Shown here: piece by piece, positions 10,281 through 57,993 of the stretch
How positions within the stretch are numbered: position 1 is the first letter of the stretch
How the letters are laid out: the number at the start of each line of letters is the position of its first letter
Origin: Bacteroidota bacterium
Lineage (GTDB): Bacteria > Bacteroidota > Ignavibacteria > Kapaibacteriales > Kapaibacteriaceae
Assembly: GCA_018266735.1 (NCBI GenBank)
Contig: JAFDZT010000004.1
Location: 808,117-872,116, forward strand
Reading direction: 5' to 3'
DNA: 64,000 nt
The notes under the pieces: model-generated
Told to the model about the DNA's origin: nothing
Database searches by the model: none
The model's input: the letters and a program-made list of their open reading frames with translations, nothing else
Program-made: the position numbers and the translations under genes

Positions 10281-10285
10281 TCCTT

Positions 10286-10338
10286 CACTTGTCACTCGTC
10301 ACTCATAACTTGTCACTTGTCACTCGTCACTCGTCACT
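10286..10338 (-). repeat. Heptamer tandem array 1 (CACTYGT on +, GTGACRA on -)
   Basis: Seven heptamers (CACTTGT, CACTCGT, CACTCAT, AACTTGT, CACTTGT, CACTCGT, CACTCGT) plus a final CACT end immediately before the ATG at 10339. The array thus forms nearly the whole 5' leader of the FMN reductase gene. The same unit recurs at 30131-30231, 38898-38929 and 40809-40855. Confidence 0.95.
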
Positions 10339-28507: not shown

Positions 28508-30484
28508 GTGATAACACTCACGAACATTTCTGTCGACCTTGGCAACCGCATGCTCTTCAGCGGCGTGTCCTTCCTGATGCAACGCGGAGAGCGCATCGGT
28601 CTTGTCGGTCGCAACGGCGCCGGCAAGAGTACGCTCCTGCACATCATTGCCGGCGAGCGCAAGGCATCGTCAGGCGAGATCGCCAAGCAAACAGGCACCA
28701 CCATCGGCTTCCTCTCGCAGGACCTTACGCTCGACGTGTCGTTCACGCTTCGCGAAACGGCCATGCAGGCCTTCGATGAAGTGCTGGCACTGCAGGCGCG
28801 CATGGACGCCATGCATCACGAGATCATGACGCGCACGGACTATGAGTCCGACGACTACATGCGTCTCTTGCAAGACCAACACGATGCGCACGATCTCTTC
28901 GAGCGCAAGGGCGGGTCGACCATGCATGCCGATATCGATCGGATCCTCACCGGTCTTGGCTTCATGCCGGCCGAGTTCGATAAACCGCTTGCACAGTTCA
29001 GCGGCGGATGGCAGATGCGCGCCGAACTTGCGAAGCTTCTGCTCCGTCAGCCCGACTGTTTGCTGTTGGATGAGCCGACGAATCACTTGGACATTGACTC
29101 CGTGCAATGGCTTGAAGACTTTCTGCGCAACTACGACGGCGCTGTCGTCCTCGTCTCGCACGATCGGACCTTCCTCGATACGATCACGAAGCGCACCATC
29201 GAGATCACGCGCACCAAGATCTACGACATTCCGGCACCGTACTCGTTGTACGAAGAGATCCGCGCGGAGCGCATGGAACTGCAACGTGCAGCGGCTGCCA
29301 ACCAGCAACGCGAGCGCGAGCGGATCCAGAAGTTCGTGGACCGATTCCGCTACAAGGCATCGCTTGCCACACGGGTGCAGTCGCGCATCAAATCGCTGCA
29401 ACGGTTGGAAGAGATCGAGGTTGACGACGAAGACACGGCCTCCCTCCGCTTCCGCTTCCCGAATGCACCGCGCAGCGGTCGTGTTGTGGTGGAATGCATT
29501 GGCGTTGTCAAGAACTACGGCGAAAAGAAGGTTCTCAAGAACGTGAACTTCGTACTAGAGCGCGGAGAGAAGATCGCCTTCCTCGGAAAGAACGGCGAGG
29601 GCAAGTCGACGATGAGCAAGATCATCGGCGGACTCGAGACCCTTACCTCCGGCGAGCTCATCATCGGGCACAACGTGTCCATCGGATACTACGCTCAGCA
29701 TCAGGCAGAGCTCCTTGGTGGTCATAACACCGTGCTACAAGTGATGGAGAACGCCTCGCCGCCCGAAATGCGTCCACGCCTTCGTTCACTCCTAGGCGCC
29801 TTTCTCTTCAGTGGCGACGATGTGAACAAGAAGGTGGCCGTCTTGAGCGGTGGTGAGAAATCTCGCCTTGCTCTTGCTCGCCTCCTTCTCCAACCTTACA
29901 ACCTTCTCATCCTCGACGAGCCCACCAACCACTTGGACATGCTCGCCAAGGAAGTGCTCAAGCAGTCGCTCATGGACTACGACGGTTCCATGATCGTGGT
30001 CAGCCACGACCGCGACTTCCTCGACTCGCTCACCACCAAGGTGGTCGAGTTCCGTCACGGCAAGCTCCAGGAATTCCTCGGCGATGTGGACGACTACCTC
30101 AGAGAGGTACGGGAGGGAAGAAGGGCGGAAGTGAAAGTGACAAGTGACGAGGTACGAGTGACAAGTAAAGTGACAAGTAAAGTGACAAGTGACGAGTTAC
30201 AAGTGACGAGTAAAGTGACAAGTGAGAAGAAGCCGCTTGCGGGTGATGCGAAGAACGAAGCGAAGAAGCTTGCAAAGCGCTTGTCGGAGATCGAAGGACT
30301 TGTAGACACCTACGAAAAGAAGATCTCCGAGCTCGACCTTGCACTTGCCGATGGTGATCTGTACAAGGACGTTCCGAAGCAGAATGCCATTCTTGCAGAC
30401 CATGCCGAAACGAAGAACAAGCTCGATACGTTGTTGACCGAATGGACCACCATTACAGAACAACTCGAAGGCCTTCATCAATGA
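28508..30484 (+). CDS. ABC-F ATPase (Uup/YdiF-like) carrying an in-frame heptamer-repeat insert
   Basis: A 658-residue soluble protein with two ABC domains and no membrane span. Domain 1 has GRNGAGKSTLLH, QFSGGWQMRAELAKLL and LLLDEPTNHLDID; domain 2 has GKNGEGKSTMSK, VLSGGEKSRLALARLLL and LILDEPTNHLDM. The inter-domain linker is charged (RFRYKASLATRVQSRIKSLQRLEEIE). ABC-F proteins act at the ribosome. Residues of about 542-575 come from the heptamer array (VTSDE, VTSK units) between domain 2 and the C-terminal coiled coil. The start is GTG at 28508. Confidence 0.93.
   Translation: MITLTNISVDLGNRMLFSGVSFLMQRGERIGLVGRNGAGKSTLLHIIAGERKASSGEIAKQTGTTIGFLSQDLTLDVSFTLRETAMQAFDEVLALQARMDAMHHEIMTRTDYESDDYMRLLQDQHDAHDLFERKGGSTMHADIDRILTGLGFMPAEFDKPLAQFSGGWQMRAELAKLLLRQPDCLLLDEPTNHLDIDSVQWLEDFLRNYDGAVVLVSHDRTFLDTITKRTIEITRTKIYDIPAPYSLYEEIRAERMELQRAAAANQQRERERIQKFVDRFRYKASLATRVQSRIKSLQRLEEIEVDDEDTASLRFRFPNAPRSGRVVVECIGVVKNYGEKKVLKNVNFVLERGEKIAFLGKNGEGKSTMSKIIGGLETLTSGELIIGHNVSIGYYAQHQAELLGGHNTVLQVMENASPPEMRPRLRSLLGAFLFSGDDVNKKVAVLSGGEKSRLALARLLLQPYNLLILDEPTNHLDMLAKEVLKQSLMDYDGSMIVVSHDRDFLDSLTTKVVEFRHGKLQEFLGDVDDYLREVREGRRAEVKVTSDEVRVTSKVTSKVTSDELQVTSKVTSEKKPLAGDAKNEAKKLAKRLSEIEGLVDTYEKKISELDLALADGDLYKDVPKQNAILADHAETKNKLDTLLTEWTTITEQLEGLHQ
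30131..30231 (+). repeat. Heptamer array 2, inside the ABC-F gene
   Basis: GTGACAA and GTGACGA heptamers (with variants GGTACGA and GTTACAA) alternate with GTAAA pentamers. The whole keeps the reading frame and encodes six VTS triplets separated by K, DE, DEL and similar. The linker location, just after the second ABC domain, is variable in the family. Confidence 0.95.
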
Positions 30485-37519: not shown

Positions 37520-38929
37520 ATGTTCTTCAAGCAGATCTACGAGCCAGGCCTTGCCCACGCCTCCTACATGGTGGGCTGTCAGAAAACCGGTACCGTGATG
37601 GTGATCGACGCCAAGCGCGACGTCGACACGTACCTTGAGATCGCCCGCCAGGAGCGACTGCAGATCACGCATCTCACCGAAACACATATCCATGCCGACT
37701 TCCTCAGCGGCACTCGCGAGCTCGCCGAGCTCACCGGCGCAGAAATGCTGCTGAGTGATGAAGGTGGCGAGGAGTGGCAGTACGAGTTTCCGCACACCGG
37801 TCTCACCGACGGCGACGTGTTCATGGTGGGCAACATCAAGGTGCAGGTGATGCATACGCCGGGTCACACACCCGAGCACATCTCCTTCCTTGTCACCGAT
37901 ACACCGGCCATTGCCGACGTGCCGATCATGATGTTCACGGGCGACTTCGTCTTCGTTGGTGATGTCGGACGTCCTGACCTGCTTGAAAAGGCGGCGGGGT
38001 ATAAAGGAACGATGGAGATCGGTGCACGTCAGCTCTGGACGTCGCTCGAGAAGTTCCGCGACCTGCCCGACCATATTCAGGTCCACCCTGCCCATGGCGC
38101 AGGATCGGCCTGTGGCAAGGCATTGGGCGCCATTCCTTCGTCGACGGTGGGATATGAGAAGCTCGTGAACTGGGCCTTGCGTCACACCAACGAAGAGGAC
38201 TTCGTCCAGGAACTTCTCTCCGGTCAGCCCGAGCCTCCCTTCTACTTCGCACAAATGAAGCGCTTGAACAAGGTGGAACGCGGCCTCCTTCCCACCGTGC
38301 CTGAGCTTGCACCCCTCACGCTTGCCGATGTGGACGATGCATTGGCCAACGGACAGTTCATCATCGACACTCGGTCGAAGGTCTCGTTCGCCGGCGGACA
38401 TATTCCGAACACGATCAACATTCAAGACAACAAGGCCTTCTCCACATGGGCCGGATGGGTCCTCAACTACAACGAGCCCTTCATCGTGATCGCGTCTCCC
38501 GAACGGACCAATGAGATCATGCGAAAGCTCATGCGCATCGGTCTCGATTCCGTACGTGGCTATCTGCCTGACGTGGCGGCGTGGACGAATGCAGGTCGCG
38601 ACCTTGCCACCGTACCGCAGATCAACCTTGATGAACTTCAGCAGCGCTACGATCACGAGAACGTTGTGGTGATCGACGTGCGTGGAGCTTCGGAGTACGA
38701 TGGCGGACATATTCCGGGCGCTTGGAACATCCATGCCGGCTACTTGCCGCAGCAGTTCGCCGAGATCCCCAAGGACAAGATGGTGGTGATCTCCTGTCAG
38801 TCCGGAGACCGCTCCAGCATTGCCACATCCGTGCTCCTGCGCGCAGGATTCACGAATGTTGTGAACTTCCCGTTGGGATGGGCGGGATGGAGAGTAAGTG
38901 ACAAGTTACAAGTGACGAGTGACGAGTGA
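37520..38929 (+). CDS. CstB-like persulfide dioxygenase-rhodanese fusion
   Basis: A 469-residue protein in three parts. Residues 1-240 are an ETHE1-type metallo-beta-lactamase domain (THIHADF, HTPGHTPEH, FTGDFVFVGDVGRPD, HPAHGAGSAC). Residues 275-355 form a rhodanese-like domain without active cysteine (VIASPE). Residues 370-458 form a rhodanese with active cysteine (VISCQSGDRSS). This layout matches CstB, which oxidises persulfide to sulfite or thiosulfate. The last residues, VSDKLQVTSDE, and the stop come from the heptamer array. MFFKQIYEPG is the natural start. Confidence 0.9.
   Translation: MFFKQIYEPGLAHASYMVGCQKTGTVMVIDAKRDVDTYLEIARQERLQITHLTETHIHADFLSGTRELAELTGAEMLLSDEGGEEWQYEFPHTGLTDGDVFMVGNIKVQVMHTPGHTPEHISFLVTDTPAIADVPIMMFTGDFVFVGDVGRPDLLEKAAGYKGTMEIGARQLWTSLEKFRDLPDHIQVHPAHGAGSACGKALGAIPSSTVGYEKLVNWALRHTNEEDFVQELLSGQPEPPFYFAQMKRLNKVERGLLPTVPELAPLTLADVDDALANGQFIIDTRSKVSFAGGHIPNTINIQDNKAFSTWAGWVLNYNEPFIVIASPERTNEIMRKLMRIGLDSVRGYLPDVAAWTNAGRDLATVPQINLDELQQRYDHENVVVIDVRGASEYDGGHIPGAWNIHAGYLPQQFAEIPKDKMVVISCQSGDRSSIATSVLLRAGFTNVVNFPLGWAGWRVSDKLQVTSDE
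38898..38929 (+). repeat. Heptamer array 3 at the 3' end of the CstB-like gene
   Basis: GTGACAA, GTTACAA, GTGACGA, GTGACGA and a final GTGA, whose TGA is the stop codon of the CstB-like gene. It passes directly into the purine undecamer array at 38930-39018. Confidence 0.95.
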
Positions 38930-39018
38930 AGAAAGAAGGAAAAGAGAAGGAAGAAAGAAGGAAAGAAGAAGTAAAAGAGAGTGAAGAGAGAAGGAAAGGA
39001 GAAGTAAAAGAGAAGTGA
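38930..39018 (+). repeat. Purine-rich undecamer array A
   Basis: Degenerate units of about 11 bases of the form GAGAAGGAAAA and GAGAAGTAAAA with insertions and losses of one or two bases. It fills the gap between the CstB-like gene and the S51 peptidase gene and contains that gene's start codon and its likely ribosome binding sequence. Confidence 0.9.
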
Positions 39019-40808: not shown

Positions 40809-40855
40809 CACTTGTCACTCGTCACTTGTCACTCGTCACTTGTCACTCGTAACTA
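40809..40855 (-). repeat. Heptamer tandem array 4 (CACTYGT on +)
   Basis: Six perfect heptamers alternating CACTTGT and CACTCGT plus AACTA, between the convergent stops of the exporter and der genes. Its last bases form the der stop codon (TAG on the minus strand). Confidence 0.97.
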
Positions 40856-42172
40856 GTCTTCGTACTTGTCTTTATTCTTCGCCCGGAACAAAAAGCTCAC
40901 CGGCACACCTTCGAGATCGAAGTGCTTGCGGAGTTGACGTTCGATGAAGCGCTTGTAGGCTTCCGGGATCAGCTCGGGATGGTTGGCGAAGAAGGCGAAG
41001 AGTGGCGGGGCGGACTTCACCTGCGTGATATAGTTGATGCGTAGGTCGCGGCCCTTCACACTTGGCGGTGGTACACGCTCGAGTTCCGGCAATACCAGAT
41101 CGTTCAACTTGCTGGTGCTCACACGCATTGTGCGTCGCGCCTGGATCTCCTTGGCCATCTCCAGCAGTCGTGTCACGCGTTGCTTCGTCAGCGCGCTCAC
41201 GTAGACAACGGGCGCATAGTCCACCGTTGGAAGTTCTTCCTTGATCTTGCGGGTGAACTCTTCGGAGGTGTGTGTGTCCTTCTCGACCAGATCCCACTTG
41301 TTCACGGCAATGATGATGCCACGACGTGACTCTACCACTTGCGAGATGATGCGTTTGTCCTGTGCTTCCAGTCCCTGTGCCGCATCGATGACCACAATGG
41401 CAACATCGCATCGGTCGATGGCACGTGCGGTTCGCATCGTGCTGTACAACTCCACCTGCTCTTTGATCTGGCTACGGCGACGGAGACCGGCCGTGTCGAT
41501 GAGGACCATCTCTTCACCGTAGAACTTCACGGTACTGTCGATGGCATCTCGTGTTGTGCCGGCGATCGGCGTCACGATCATGCGCTCCTTGCCAAGCAGC
41601 ACATTCGTGATCGAGCTCTTCCCAACGTTCGGTCGACCCACGATAGCGATCTTCAACCGCTCATCTTCCACTTCGTGTTCGGTCGGCAAGGCACTGACAA
41701 TGGCATCGAGAAAGTCGCCGGTGCTTCGGCCGTTCAAGGCCGAGATCGGGTATGGATCGCCGAGACCGAGTGCATAGAACTCAGAAGCATTCAGATCGGT
41801 CTTCGCATTGTCGCACTTATTCACGACCAGGGTGACGGGCTTGTTCGAGGTGCGAAGCATCGTGGCGATCGCTTCGTCGATCGGCGTCATTCCGTCCACA
41901 CCGTCAACCACCATGATAATGGCATCCGCTTCTTCCACGGCCATCATCGCCTGCTCGCGGATCGCCTTGTCGAACAGCTCCATGCTCTTCGGCACGATAC
42001 CGCCGGTATCGACCAATTGGAACTTGTGTCCATTCCACTCGCCCACGGCATACAGCCGGTCGCGCGTCACACCGGGCTCCGACTCCACGATCGCGTGCCG
42101 TTCTTCGATGATGCGGTTGAACAATGTTGACTTGCCGACGTTAGGTCGGCCTACGATAGCTACGAGACTCAT
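40853..42172 (-). CDS. der: Ribosome-assembly GTPase Der (EngA)
   Basis: A 439-residue protein with two tandem GTPase domains: VGRPNVGKSTLFNRI and DTGGI plus NKCD in the first; VGRPNVGKSSITNVL, DTAGL and NKWD in the second. A C-terminal KH-like domain (RVPPPSVKGRDLRINYITQ) follows. Der binds the 50S ribosomal subunit during assembly and is essential in most bacteria. The stop codon is set in the heptamer array; the region upstream of the start is the purine array at 42188-42456. Confidence 0.96.
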   Translation of the reverse strand: MSLVAIVGRPNVGKSTLFNRIIEERHAIVESEPGVTRDRLYAVGEWNGHKFQLVDTGGIVPKSMELFDKAIREQAMMAVEEADAIIMVVDGVDGMTPIDEAIATMLRTSNKPVTLVVNKCDNAKTDLNASEFYALGLGDPYPISALNGRSTGDFLDAIVSALPTEHEVEDERLKIAIVGRPNVGKSSITNVLLGKERMIVTPIAGTTRDAIDSTVKFYGEEMVLIDTAGLRRRSQIKEQVELYSTMRTARAIDRCDVAIVVIDAAQGLEAQDKRIISQVVESRRGIIIAVNKWDLVEKDTHTSEEFTRKIKEELPTVDYAPVVYVSALTKQRVTRLLEMAKEIQARRTMRVSTSKLNDLVLPELERVPPPSVKGRDLRINYITQVKSAPPLFAFFANHPELIPEAYKRFIERQLRKHFDLEGVPVSFLFRAKNKDKYED

Positions 42173-42187
42173 GGTTAAAAATACGGG

Positions 42188-42456
42188 GAAAAGAGAGGGG
42201 GAAGGAAGAAAGAAGTAAAAGAGAATGAAAAGAGAAGGAAAAGAGAAGGAAGAAAGAAGGAAGAAAGAAGGAAAAAGGAGTGAAAAGAGAAGGAAAAGAG
42301 AAGCAAAAGAAAAGGAAAAGAGAAGGAAAAGAGAAGGAAAAGAGAAGGAAAAGAGAAGGAGAAGAGAAGGAGAAGAGAAGGAGAAGAGAAGGAGAAGAGA
42401 AGGAGAAGAGAAGGAGAAGAGAAGGAAAAGAGAAGGAAAGGAGAAGAAAAAGAGGG
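42188..42456 (+). repeat. Purine-rich undecamer array B, upstream of der
   Basis: About 270 bases of almost pure purine on the plus strand, made of GAGAAGGAAAA, GAGAAGGAGAA and related 10-12-base units, the latter repeated about seven times without change. It fills most of the 346-base gap between der and the four-helix-bundle gene; the remaining 62 bases (42457-42518) are unique and show no feature. Open frames within are repeat artefacts rich in Lys, Arg and Glu. Confidence 0.95.
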
Positions 42457-42518
42457 GAATGCGAGGGGAGAGGGTCGGCGGGACAAAGAAGGCGGACGTT
42501 GGTGTTCGGATCTCAGAA

Positions 42519-42881
42519 CTATAGCTTGCCTCTCGAGCGCAGGGTTCTGATCGACGCGTTGAGCATTAGGTACACTTCATTTGCCATGCCCCAGGCCGTT
42601 GCGAACTCGGAGAGAGACCGATAGAACTCGTCGTGTTTGAGGAGTTCCATCCAGTAGATCGTTTCACTCACCTCCTTTTGGGCGATCTTCAGTTTATGGA
42701 CGAAGTCCTTGGGACTCTCGGCAAAACGTGATTCTCGGATGTTCGCTCCGACGGAGGTTCCGCTTCGCAAGAGTTGCCGGAGCGTATCACGGTCGACAAT
42801 TCGGAACCAGCACAGTTTCACTAACTCGCGGGTCGCATGTGCCAGTTCGGTGGAACGATCGATCAGGATAGTGTTTCGCAT
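42519..42881 (-). CDS. Four-helix-bundle protein (TIGR02436, 23S rRNA intervening-sequence protein family)
   Basis: A 120-residue helical protein. LLRSGTSVGANIRESRFAESPKDFVHKLKIAQKEVSETIYWMELL is split into the family-defining segments: SGTSVGANIRES and KLKIAQKEVSETIYWMELL. Family members are found in rRNA intervening sequences and in many stand-alone loci, and they share their fold with the Avd accessory protein of diversity-generating retroelements; function is unknown. It lies between two repeat arrays in inverted orientation. MRNTILIDRS (ATG at 42879-42881) is the chosen start. Confidence 0.88.
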   Translation of the reverse strand: MRNTILIDRSTELAHATRELVKLCWFRIVDRDTLRQLLRSGTSVGANIRESRFAESPKDFVHKLKIAQKEVSETIYWMELLKHDEFYRSLSEFATAWGMANEVYLMLNASIRTLRSRGKL

Positions 42882-42980
42882 GGTGCCTCCACGCAATACG
42901 TGCAGGCCTCAGGGCCGTTCGTGACAACCCGCTTTGGCAGCGCGCACCTGTAGGTTGGCTTCGATCGACTACCAAACGCA

Positions 42981-43122
42981 CTTCTCTTTTCCTTCTCTTT
43001 TACTTCTCTTTTACTTCTCTTTTACTTCTCTTTTACTTCTTTCTTACTTCTCTTTTACTTCTCGTTTACTTCTTTCTTACTTCTCTTTTCCTTCTCTTTT
43101 ACTTCTCTCTTACTTCTCTCTT
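42981..43122 (-). repeat. Purine-rich undecamer array C (pyrimidine on +), inverted relative to array B
   Basis: About twelve units of CTTCTCTTTTA and close variants, the reverse complement of TAAAAGAGAAG. It fills the gap upstream of the four-helix-bundle gene and runs into the 3' end of the secreted protein gene, supplying its stop codon and last residues. Confidence 0.95.
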
Positions 43123-44009
43123 GAGTGCTGCAACCTCTCCATCAACACAAAATCATAACTCACCAGCATGGTCGATGCCGAGCCATGCATGCCGATGGTG
43201 ACAGCTTCTTTGTCGCCAACATTCCAGTAGACGTATTCTGATTCGACGACGGCGTGTGGACCGTAGTGGGAGATGAGGTCATCGACGAAGATCTTGGCCG
43301 CTTGTTCGCGTTGGGCCTTATCGCGAAAGGTATAGTAGAGCTCAGCCTTGAAGGCCCGGTTCTGTGCGTCGACATGAATGAGAAGCGAGTCGGCCATGAA
43401 GCCGTTGCGACTGTAATTCTTGAAGGCAAGAACGGACTCTTCGATGCGCTTCTTCACGCAGCCCGAGTCCTTCGCATAGTCCTCCACATCTTCGCGCGCT
43501 GTCTTGAGCGGTAGTGCCAGCGGCCACCGACGTACAGTGGTGGAATCGTTGAACACAAAGTTGTCGGGTGCGAACCGCACGGTCATCAGATCGTCTTCCG
43601 CCACCACGCCAATGCTCACGAGATCGCCATCATACCCTTCCCACCCTGCAAAGTCCTCGCCGAATCGCGACGGCTCACCAAGCTTCGTGGTCACGATGTC
43701 GGTAACGCGATCGAGCGTCTTCGCGCCATCGTAGGGGATGAACAGGGTGATGGCCGACATGGCGTTGTTGTTGTAGTGCACGTACACCGAATCGGTCTTG
43801 ATGCCTTCCCACGTATAGCCCGTTGCCTGCAGCACTTGTTCGGATCCCCAATCCATCAGACCATCGCGCACTGCAAGACCCTCCTTGGCCAAGACCACGC
43901 GCGCATTGTCGGCCGGTGCCATGTATGGCACGGTCGTTGGCCATCGATGCTGGGCCTGTGCAAGGGTCGACGTGATCAGGAAGGCGGCAAGGAGGAGCGA
44001 ACGGGACAT
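43110..44009 (-). CDS. Secreted protein, unknown function
   Basis: A 299-residue protein with signal peptide (MSRSLLLAAFLITSTLAQAQ). The mature part has strand-rich segments (KTDSVYVHYNNNAMSAITLFIPYDG; DLMTVRFAPDNF) but no motif I know. A GGAGG-like stretch precedes the ATG at 44007-44009, better than the longer reading from 44057, which would overlap the MoxR gene. The stop codon and last residues (SREK) lie in purine array C, so the natural C-terminus may have been altered by repeat growth. Confidence 0.7.
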   Translation of the reverse strand: MSRSLLLAAFLITSTLAQAQHRWPTTVPYMAPADNARVVLAKEGLAVRDGLMDWGSEQVLQATGYTWEGIKTDSVYVHYNNNAMSAITLFIPYDGAKTLDRVTDIVTTKLGEPSRFGEDFAGWEGYDGDLVSIGVVAEDDLMTVRFAPDNFVFNDSTTVRRWPLALPLKTAREDVEDYAKDSGCVKKRIEESVLAFKNYSRNGFMADSLLIHVDAQNRAFKAELYYTFRDKAQREQAAKIFVDDLISHYGPHAVVESEYVYWNVGDKEAVTIGMHGSASTMLVSYDFVLMERLQHSREK

Positions 44010-44053
44010 GGCAGTTCCTGCGCGAAGAGTGGATAGCTCCGATCGACCGTTGG

Positions 44054-45028
44054 TCACAACGCCTTGATCAGCTCGGCCACAATGGCCGATGGCGTCATGC
44101 CCTCTGCTTCTGCATTGAAATTCGTCACGATACGATGTCGGAGCACACTTGCGGCCACGGCGTTCACATCCTCGATGGACGGCGTGAACCGTCCAGCAAG
44201 GGCCGCGCGTGACTTTGCGCCAAGAACGAGATACTGCGAGGCGCGTGGTCCTGCTCCATAACTCAGGAAGTCGCGGACGATCTTGGCCGAGCTTGCTCCC
44301 GGACGTGTGTTGCGCACGAGTGTGACCGCATGCTGGATCACATTGTCGGCAACGGGTACTCTGCGCACAAGATCCTGGTAGGCGATGATGTCGGCAGCGC
44401 CGATCACACGTTGCAGTGTTGGCGTGCGCTCCACCGTGGTGCTTCGCACCACTTCCATTTCTTCTTCCATGCTTGGATAGTCAAGCCACAGATTGAACAT
44501 GAATCGGTCCAACTGTGCTTCGGGCAATGGATACGTTCCCTCTTGCTCGATCGGATTCTGCGTAGCGAGCACGAAGAAGGGTTCTTCGAGATGATAGGTG
44601 GTCCCCGCCGCCGTCACACTGTGCTCTTGCATGGCCTCGAGCAATGCCGCTTGTGTTTTCGGAGGTGTACGGTTGATCTCGTCGGCAAGGACGATGTTGG
44701 CGAACACCGGACCTTTGACGAAGCGGAAGGATTTATGTCCGGTGGTGATGTTGTCTTCGATCACTTCCGTACCCGTGATATCACCGGGCATCAGATCAGG
44801 CGTGAACTGAATGCGTGAGAACGAGAGGTCCATCGTTTGTGCCAGCGTGCGGATGAGCAAGGTCTTTGCAAGACCCGGTACGCCTACGAGCAAGCAATGT
44901 CCGCGCGCGAAGAGCGAGATCAGCAACTGATCGACCACATCTTCCTGCCCGACGATAACCTTCTGGATCTCCGTTTTAACGTTCTTGATGGCCGATGATA
45001 CGTGGTGTACGAGTTCTACGTCGTTCAT
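44054..45028 (-). CDS. MoxR-family AAA+ ATPase
   Basis: A 324-residue AAA+ protein. Walker A is GVPGLAKTLLIR, Walker B is IVLADEINRTPPKTQAALLEAMQE, sensor 1 is FVLATQNPIEQEGTYPLPEAQLDRFM, and the C-terminal lid follows. The spacing is that of MoxR proteins, which act as chaperone-like ATPases in metalloenzyme or envelope assembly, normally with a VWA/DUF58 partner. No DUF58 gene follows here, which is unusual. Its ATG overlaps the stop of the cysteine desulfurase gene. Confidence 0.93.
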   Translation of the reverse strand: MNDVELVHHVSSAIKNVKTEIQKVIVGQEDVVDQLLISLFARGHCLLVGVPGLAKTLLIRTLAQTMDLSFSRIQFTPDLMPGDITGTEVIEDNITTGHKSFRFVKGPVFANIVLADEINRTPPKTQAALLEAMQEHSVTAAGTTYHLEEPFFVLATQNPIEQEGTYPLPEAQLDRFMFNLWLDYPSMEEEMEVVRSTTVERTPTLQRVIGAADIIAYQDLVRRVPVADNVIQHAVTLVRNTRPGASSAKIVRDFLSYGAGPRASQYLVLGAKSRAALAGRFTPSIEDVNAVAASVLRHRIVTNFNAEAEGMTPSAIVAELIKAL

Positions 45029-56118: not shown

Positions 56119-57993
56119 ATGAGAACGATCCTCCTTTCCGCCTTGCTCGCACTTGTCCTTTGTGCGACACCGACATTTGCCACGGTCACCACATGGCCAC
56201 TCGTCCTGAAGGGACAGAAGGGCACGGCCACTGTGTACACCCCACAAGTGGATTCATACACGAACGGACAGATCGAAGGTCGTGGCGCCGTGATGGTGCA
56301 GCCCGCCTCCGGTGGCGACCCCGTCTTCGGTGCGATCTCGTTCACCGCAACGATCCCTGCCGAGCACTCTGCGTCGGTGATCCCCATCGACAAGGTAACG
56401 GTCACCGATGCGAAGTTCCCGCCGTCCGTCACAACGGGTACGATCTCGTCGTTCAAGCAGGAACTCTCCGATCTTCTCACGGCGGCGCACATCACCATCG
56501 GCGCCGACCTCATCGATCGCGCCGAGAAGAACACACCATTGAAGACGGATCCTCCGACCATCCTTGTTCGCTATGCGCCCGCCATGCTCGTTCTCATCGA
56601 TGGCGAGCCACACTGGAAGAGCATCGACAACACGTCGATGGAACGCGTGGTGAACACTCCGTTCCTCCTCGTGCGCGAGCGCGGCACCACGACCATGTAC
56701 CTGTACGGTGCAACGAAGTGGTACAGTGCTGCAACGCTCGATGGATCATGGTCGGTGGTCAATTCGCCTTCGGCAACCCTCAAGGACCTCGAGAAGCAGA
56801 TGCTCGAACAGATGAAGAAGGATGGACGTGAAGCACCGACCACTCCGACCACCATGCCGCAAGTGGTGGTGAGCACCGCTCCTGCCGAACTCCTCTCGTT
56901 CAATGGCGAGCCTGCGTTCGATCCCATCACGGGCACATCCTTGCTCGGTGCCACGAACACGGAGTCGTTCGTCTTCATGGACATTGCCTCGCAGAAGTAC
57001 TTCACCGTGCTTTCGGGAAGATGGTATCGGGCCGTGAAGCCCGCAGGGCCATGGTCATATGTGGCGTCGACCGATCTGCCGGCAGACTTCAAGAAGATCC
57101 CCGAGGGTTCGAAGTACGATGCTGTGCTCGCCTATGTGAGCGGCACACCTGCAGCGAAGAATGCCATTCTCGATGCCACCGTCCCAACGACAACGGCCGT
57201 CGATCGCGCATCTGCCACGTGCAAGGTGGAATACGATGGAGAGCCCATCTTCAAGCCTGTTGATGGCACAACGATGCAGTATGCAACGAACACGGCGAGC
57301 ACCGTACTCAAGCAGGGCGATCAATACTTCTGTTGCGACAATGGAGTGTGGTTCGCCAGCACATCGGCAAAAGGTCCGTGGGTGGTCTCGGAGAAGCGGC
57401 CGGAGCAAACCGAGAAGATCGAACCATCGTCGCCGGTCTACAACACCAAGTACGTCTACGTGTATCAAAGCACACCAACTGTGGTGTACGTTGGCTACAC
57501 GGCCGGCTACATGGGAAGCTATGTGTACGGACCTACGATCGTGTATGGTACCGGCTACTACTACTATCCGTGGTATGGTGTGCACTACTATCCGCATCCG
57601 TACACATATGGATTTCACATGATGTACAGTCCATACATGGGATGGGGTGTGAGCGTTGGGTATTACGGACATTACCATGGCGGATACTGGGGTCCGCCCA
57701 TGTACCGTCCACCGTACTACGGATACCATCCTCCGTATGGACACTATGGCGGACGTCCGGTGAACATCAACGTGCACAACACCAACATCTACACGAATGG
57801 CGCACGTCCGGGCACACGTCCGATGGCAACACCGGCGCAACGTCCGAACACCATGCCAAGTGCGGCCACACGTCCGACGCAAATGCCGGCTCAGCGACCC
57901 AGCACCATGCAGAGTCCTTCCACACGTCCAACGCAGATGCCCGCACAACGTCCGAGCACCATGCCGCGTGGTGGTGGCGGTCGACGTCGGTAA
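56119..57993 (+). CDS. Secreted Tyr/Gly-rich repeat protein
   Basis: A 624-residue exported protein (signal MRTILLSALLALVLCATPTFA). Residues 25-430 hold repeated units with W-x-S/R-A and GPW-x2 ends (YGATKWYSAATLDGSWSVV; GRWYRAVKPAGPWSYV; NGVWFASTSAKGPWVV). Residues 440-570 are very rich in Tyr, Gly and Pro. The last 55 are Pro/Thr/Met/Gln-rich tandem units of the type RPTQMPAQRPSTM. It may be a cell-surface or matrix protein. No family is named with confidence. Confidence 0.8.
   Translation: MRTILLSALLALVLCATPTFATVTTWPLVLKGQKGTATVYTPQVDSYTNGQIEGRGAVMVQPASGGDPVFGAISFTATIPAEHSASVIPIDKVTVTDAKFPPSVTTGTISSFKQELSDLLTAAHITIGADLIDRAEKNTPLKTDPPTILVRYAPAMLVLIDGEPHWKSIDNTSMERVVNTPFLLVRERGTTTMYLYGATKWYSAATLDGSWSVVNSPSATLKDLEKQMLEQMKKDGREAPTTPTTMPQVVVSTAPAELLSFNGEPAFDPITGTSLLGATNTESFVFMDIASQKYFTVLSGRWYRAVKPAGPWSYVASTDLPADFKKIPEGSKYDAVLAYVSGTPAAKNAILDATVPTTTAVDRASATCKVEYDGEPIFKPVDGTTMQYATNTASTVLKQGDQYFCCDNGVWFASTSAKGPWVVSEKRPEQTEKIEPSSPVYNTKYVYVYQSTPTVVYVGYTAGYMGSYVYGPTIVYGTGYYYYPWYGVHYYPHPYTYGFHMMYSPYMGWGVSVGYYGHYHGGYWGPPMYRPPYYGYHPPYGHYGGRPVNINVHNTNIYTNGARPGTRPMATPAQRPNTMPSAATRPTQMPAQRPSTMQSPSTRPTQMPAQRPSTMPRGGGGRRR

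Follow-up and report, generated by a model that had tools for sequence, protein, structure and literature searches.

A four-helix-bundle gene between inverted tandem arrays as the probable sole gene of a transposase-less miniature mobile element

The stretch of DNA analysed here (the window, 64,000 nucleotides) comes from the forward strand of contig JAFDZT010000004.1, positions 808,117 to 872,116, in assembly GCA_018266735.1 of a Bacteroidota bacterium of the family Kapaibacteriaceae. At window positions 42188-43122, a small gene for a four-helix-bundle (4HB) protein of the S23/IVP family is bracketed by two inverted arrays of an 11-base unit, as judged from the sequence itself, from Tandem Repeats Finder (TRF) and from profile matches. 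TRF places the array downstream of the gene at 42201-42454 (period 11, 23 copies, 90% matches, score 359) and the upstream one, which reads as pyrimidine on the + strand, at 42980-43119 (period 11, 12.7 copies, 88% matches, score 224). When the two flanks of the gene are aligned with each other, the inverted alignment scores 182 and the direct one 18, against a 99th percentile of 43 for 324 control open reading frames (ORFs). The 4HB gene between inverted undecamer arrays that a preliminary description had picked out from the letters of this DNA is thus confirmed.

The encoded protein falls well within TIGR02436 (E 7e-22, 77.6 bits against a cut-off of 24) and PF05635 (E 1e-15, 58.3 bits against 33.8), the S23 or 23S_rRNA_IVP family, which for decades has been known only as one of 'function unknown'. 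The gene starts with a TTG at 42896, and its first ATG is at 42881. An AlphaFold2 model of the protein is a four-helix bundle (pLDDT 92) whose closest matches in a Foldseek search are 2rld and 2gsc, structures with five chains each, followed by the Avd structures 8ub7 and 4dwl. No other ORF is present in the element, which therefore lacks the transposase or nuclease gene of an insertion sequence, and a profile search of the window found no Y1 tyrosine transposase. Rfam gave no match in the window, and the element's neighbours are engA and another protein gene, so it does not sit in an rRNA gene. The preliminary description had seen no reverse transcriptase here; this holds for the whole genome, in which RVT_1 has 0 matches. 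The features are collected in Table 1.

Table 1. Features of the window element, its neighbours and a nearby gene-less array (window coordinates; HMM, hidden Markov model)
Feature	Position	Strand	Remarks
Array A	38896..39015	+	Adjoining AAGTGAC 7-mer and 11-mer arrays, no 4HB gene
engA/der GTPase gene	40853..42172	-	Downstream neighbour; other border of the insertion site
Array B	42188..42454	+	Gene-relative downstream arm; 11-mer GAAGGAAAAGA, purine on +
4HB gene (TIGR02436/PF05635)	42519..42896	-	HMM match 42540-42860
TGTCACG motif	42920..42926	-	Promoter/operator candidate between upstream arm and 4HB gene
Array C	42980..43119	-	Gene-relative upstream arm; 11-mer that reads as purine along the 4HB gene's own strand; orientation opposite to that of array B
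Gene for 315-aa protein	43110..44057	-	Upstream neighbour without Pfam family; frame terminates within array C

We then examined 153 family genes in three sets: 43 from this order (this genome included), 80 at named loci from many phyla and 30 from Xanthomonadales. Each gene's left flank was aligned twice, once with the reverse-complemented right flank (inverted) and once, as an internal control, with the right flank as it stands (direct). The inverted score exceeded the direct score in 139 of the 153 genes. Inverted arms, defined by a score of at least 32, flank 112 of the 153 family genes and 11 of 729 neighbouring control ORFs (p ~1e-92), so that most family genes have the terminal inverted repeats of an insertion sequence, the ends being tandem arrays. 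Enrichment of arrays around other family members was the test that the preliminary description had set, and it persists among the 133 genes left once proteins more than 70% identical are removed (99 with arms) and against small control ORFs only (4/206; p 3e-50). Because flanks of 300 bp were used for targets and of 400 bp for controls, the bias runs against the enrichment. The cut-off of 32 was set after the first sets were seen; comparisons with the 99th percentile and with TRF, neither of which uses it, give the same result. TRF finds tandem arrays on both sides of 31 of 41 family genes compared with 3.7% of controls, and in another set on both sides of 42 of 77 compared with 6.6%.

At least one of the 11 scoring control ORFs is itself a family gene; among high-scoring controls, two leading ORFs of the first set are, judged by position, family genes, and the ORF L179:2751 is a family gene as well (L numbers denote loci and G numbers genomes). 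Two further control ORFs stand out for other reasons. One encodes a GIY-YIG nuclease and is bracketed by inverted copies of the palindromic repeat GATGCCGACCTGCGTCGGCATGACA (L091, 9874-10179), perhaps another small gene-plus-repeat element. The other has inverted flanks and a weak Y1_Tnp (IS200-like) match (L199, 8583-9134). It is possibly a RAYT (a tyrosine transposase associated with repetitive extragenic palindromes, REPs) together with its repeats, and would then be a positive control that was not planned.

The elements measure about 0.4-1 kb and are found in many bacterial phyla. Their arms have a median length of 33 bp. Of 111 armed genes, 86 have a best period of 7 bp and the remainder one of 6-25 bp, and when the arm is read inward from its outer end, G exceeds C in 106 of 110. 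The unit varies from gene to gene, and the two arms of any one gene match. Among the 64 elements with called neighbours on both sides, only one has divergent genes around it.

Four family genes are present in the genome from which the window comes, three of them bracketed by inverted arrays and each of these with a different unit: the 11-mer of the window, an AAGTGAC-type 7-mer (L050) and a 12-mer such as ACTGCGTGGGAC (L051). Single arrays and gene-less inverted pairs of the same unit as an element's arms are dispersed over the genome. Both 11-mer and 7-mer arrays are scattered in this way, 11-mer arrays are also found nested between 7-mer arrays, and gene-less pairs occur with centres of 137 bp (L044) and 255 bp (L046). 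We read array A as a gene-less derivative of the element. AAGTGAC-type arrays without a 4HB gene lie in intergenic positions of the window at 10285-10338, 30129-30229, 38896-38929 and 40809-40870, and in our reading they are solo arms left by elements of the L050 type.

Dispersal of the AAGTGAC unit goes with possession of its gene. A 21-bp array pattern, with up to 2 mismatches allowed, was searched for in 61 genomes and gave 262 matches in G000, 215 in G008, 172 in G010, 150 in G022 and 10 in G020, with 0 in the other 56. The first four of these genomes own the 4HB genes with AAGTGAC-type arms (L050, L113, L105 and L103), and G001, of the same genus, has neither a match nor a family gene. 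A reversed control pattern matches only G016, the owner of L111, which has AGTGAAC in its arms. Apart from the handful of matches in G020, AAGTGAC is thus amplified only in company with a cognate-armed 4HB gene, as in a REP/RAYT-like system. More generally, arm similarity tracks protein similarity in three sets (p 0.003, 0.001 and 0.0005), the unit-length class is the same as that of the nearest protein in 34 of 36 cases, and some protein clades have longer units.

At the sites that we compared, the parts of the architecture (tandem array, 4HB gene and inverted array) occur together or are jointly missing. At the window site, G002, G004 and G007 carry a homologue of the 315-aa neighbour about 17-58 bp from engA, with no gene and no array between them. 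Since gene and arrays are jointly missing in these sister genera, the unit is an insertion; arrays at this site in strains lacking the gene, the case that the preliminary description had named as fatal to its proposal, were found in none of the three. Between nuoC and nuoD of Alphaproteobacteria, nine loci have an element and about 25 do not. The units there include GTGAATG, GTGAGTG, GTGAGCC, GCAGTCG, GTGAGTA, TAGGCAA and GCGAATA, among others, with arms matched within each locus, and the nine elements represent either one old insertion or several. In a genus-level group, the unit at one site is a 13-mer or a 24-mer, depending on the species, and two species show an empty site (L118 compared with L116/L121). 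L113 and L103/L105 have an element in common within different flanks, that is, at unrelated loci. Between two species, an entire 4HB element is inverted in place within collinear flanks (L107, 13591-14216; L114, 13744-14367).

The most precise comparison comes from Nostocales plasmids of about 97% identity, in which L215 is 428 bp longer than L337 and L338, and L340 is 414 bp longer than L336. The sequence GTAAT flanks both ends of the L215 and L340 inserts and occurs once in the empty site (three empty records), a 5-bp target-site duplication (TSD). L339 retains a relic of about 130 bp, and L349 has a gene-less pair of arms where L343 has the full element. Enrichment and empty sites together support the earlier suggestion of a candidate mobile or repeat-handling unit. 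The ends of nuoC in element-free relatives and the TSD case indicate insertions at true stop codons. As proof of targeting, a stop codon at the start of an arm was weakened: in 50 of 112 cases arms have stops in all three frames (17 expected), so that ORF ends are drawn to arms. A search for phage carriage, made with one query against 50,697 phage records, returned no match.

We consider it probable that the stand-alone S23/IVP 4HB gene is the sole gene of a widespread, transposase-less miniature mobile element, and that its protein recognises and spreads its own repeat. In the mechanism that we propose, the 4HB protein, probably a pentamer like 2rld and 2gsc, would bind its own repeat as DNA, and its geometry would set the length of the unit. 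It would then bring the ends together and direct the copying or insertion of repeat-bounded segments, often at a gene's stop codon, aiding the spread of the repeat both in cis and in trans. Since no nuclease, transposase or reverse transcriptase can be recognised in the element, cutting and joining must come from elsewhere, presumably from a host enzyme or another one; this catalytic step is the main gap of the mechanism. Slippage and template switching between the arms would later alter the unit in concert.

Several observations weigh against this reading. The only gene of the element has no catalytic domain, 41 of the 153 family genes are without arms at the threshold, and the fourth family gene of this genome (C1:15260) has no arrays. 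Cognate dispersal was examined for a single unit, AAGTGAC, and the 10 matches in G020 occur without a known cognate gene. The correlation between protein and arm similarity could instead be caused by shared descent of whole elements. The TSD is clean in a single case only: the comparison of L344 with L357 points to a possible TTCTA duplication if a difference of 1 nt is allowed, and no clear duplication is seen at L345 or L347. Finally, multi-copy 4HB genes in Calothrix ride in an ISL3-like transposon, which leaves their own mobility unproven.

These last copies bear on an alternative that we regard as unlikely, in which an unrelated host transposase moves the arms in trans, with the 4HB gene as cargo that has another job, for instance in array regulation or DNA protection. 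In Calothrix sp. PCC 7103 there are five near-identical 4HB copies with one heptamer arm visible (L278, L282, L286, L290 and L294). Judged by eye, they look like a 4HB element carried as cargo of the ISL3-like transposon, and we dropped them as proof of transposition. Their setting agrees with a cargo role, as do the lack of a catalytic domain and a TSD of the kind that DNA transposases make. Such a role fits poorly with the recurrence of arms, differing in unit, around one gene family in many phyla, and with units that follow the protein, since a cargo gene is not expected to define the ends. In the same strain, the two heptamer arms of L304 share an internal run of about 25 bases, in inverted register, as though one were a copy of the other.

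Quite unlikely, in our estimate, is a model based on the intervening sequences (IVSs) of 23S rRNA, in which the arms are maintained as a transcript stem that encloses the gene in its loop and is cut by RNase III, and the element spreads through RNA and a reverse transcriptase acting in trans, as for Avd in diversity-generating retroelements (DGRs). In Coxiella, an IVS with an S23 ORF contains heptamers, ends in a 28-bp stem and is a substrate of RNase III in vitro (PMC4990558), and the 4HB fold is that of Avd. The long transcript stem envisaged in the preliminary description also appears on computation, the minus-strand RNA of 42188-43122 folding at -344 kcal/mol (z -13.9). As the main selected feature, however, this stem was rejected. 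Mismatches between arms are of the G-U type in 142 cases and of the A-C type in 156, and the absence of a G-U excess argues that the arms are not selected as an RNA stem and behave as DNA repeats. In addition, 17 of the 64 elements with two called neighbours are antisense to both, and dependence on a reverse transcriptase was rejected for this genome, which has no RVT_1. Triplex DNA formed by homopurine arms, another early suggestion, cannot be general because most arms are of mixed sequence.

We think it very unlikely that the arrays are merely binding sites through which the 4HB protein regulates its own gene, rather than ends of a mobile element. Such autoregulation would suit the link between protein and unit, and in this order the gene is preceded by an arm and a conserved TGTCACG motif. 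Of 36 spacers from this order, 17 contain TGTCAC (expectation 1.2), as do 0 of 76 elsewhere, and elements with TGTCACG between upstream arm and gene include L092, L095, L097, L101-L103, L105 and L107. Arms stand on both sides of the gene, however, arrays are amplified at many gene-less sites, and there are empty sites and a TSD. We give almost no credence to arrays arising in place around an ordinary gene by replication slippage or template switching: arm copy number does differ between L215 and L340, and units at one site differ in concert, as these processes could yield, but sites empty of both gene and arrays, a TSD, the same element at unrelated loci and single-unit arrays dispersed almost only with a cognate gene speak for movement, and slippage and template switching may explain how arms evolve after insertion. 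Elsewhere in the window, a 54-bp tandem repeat is present in three copies at 57806-57965.

A mobile element with a 4HB gene as its only gene can be set beside several known systems. The 23S rRNA IVSs of Leptospira and Coxiella that carry an S23p/IVP ORF have the same gene family, terminal inverted repeats and a similar size (428 nt); that of Coxiella has tandem GACAGAT heptamers beside the ORF, and such IVSs have been called selfish, with a mobile origin proposed (PMC4990558). The window element shares with them an S23 ORF between terminal inverted repeats. Unlike them, the elements described here lie between protein genes in many phyla, with varying units, gene-less derivatives, genome-wide dispersal and a 5-bp TSD seen once, and our data give no sign that excision from RNA plays a part. 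REP/RAYT systems and REPINs (REP doublets forming hairpins) likewise have a gene between inverted repeat copies, apparent dispersal in trans and gene-less derivatives (PMC2817692, PMC3116915), but RAYTs belong to the Y1/HUH transposases and REPs are palindromic, whereas here the protein is a 4HB free of nuclease motifs and the repeat is a tandem array of varying unit. Insertion sequences and miniature inverted-repeat transposable elements resemble the 4HB elements in their terminal inverted repeats, small size, gene-less copies and the one clean TSD, and differ in that the 4HB elements have no transposase and end in tandem arrays that differ between elements. Avd of DGRs (4dwl, 8ub7) has the same fold (Foldseek TM about 0.7), and Pfam bAvd weakly matches a relative; this genome has no RVT_1 with which to form a DGR, a template/variable repeat pair not having been searched for.

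The arms also resemble the heptamer repeats described in bacteria. One survey found that no tandem repeats are more abundant than heptamers in the intergenic regions of prokaryotes, with no clue to function (PMC6344855). Rehm et al. 2015 found GGGNATC, of unknown role, enriched in Xanthomonas (PMC4692102); GGGGA(C/T)T in Nostoc (PMC4692102) and TAACTGA in Beggiatoaceae (PMC4679880) are further heptamer tandem repeats with no known role. The known repeats match our arms in having about four copies and in adjoining stop codons. We find GGGATTC/GGGAATC arms flanking seven Xanthomonadales 4HB genes, and units of the cyanobacterial version, GGGGATT, flanking a 4HB gene on a Planktothrix plasmid; a link between TAACTGA and 4HB genes is not established. 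The parts consulted of the three papers do not mention the 4HB gene family, and searches of the open-access literature, a scope that excludes preprints and most subscription papers, found no text that joins 4HB genes, inverted arms and heptamer repeats.

A broader claim, to which we give slightly less than an even chance, is that these elements form a new nuclease-less mobile class, in which an oligomeric 4HB protein recognises inverted arrays of a short unit and spreads its gene as well as any other segment that such arrays enclose, that they are the source of most bacterial heptamer repeats and that rRNA IVSs are the same element landed in rRNA. If our reading is true, the S23/IVP family would gain a job and a genomic setting, and an origin would be suggested for the intervening sequences of rRNA. 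The element would also offer a testable source for the common seven-base repeats of bacteria, and if it truly moves without a recombinase of its own, the mechanism itself would be new.
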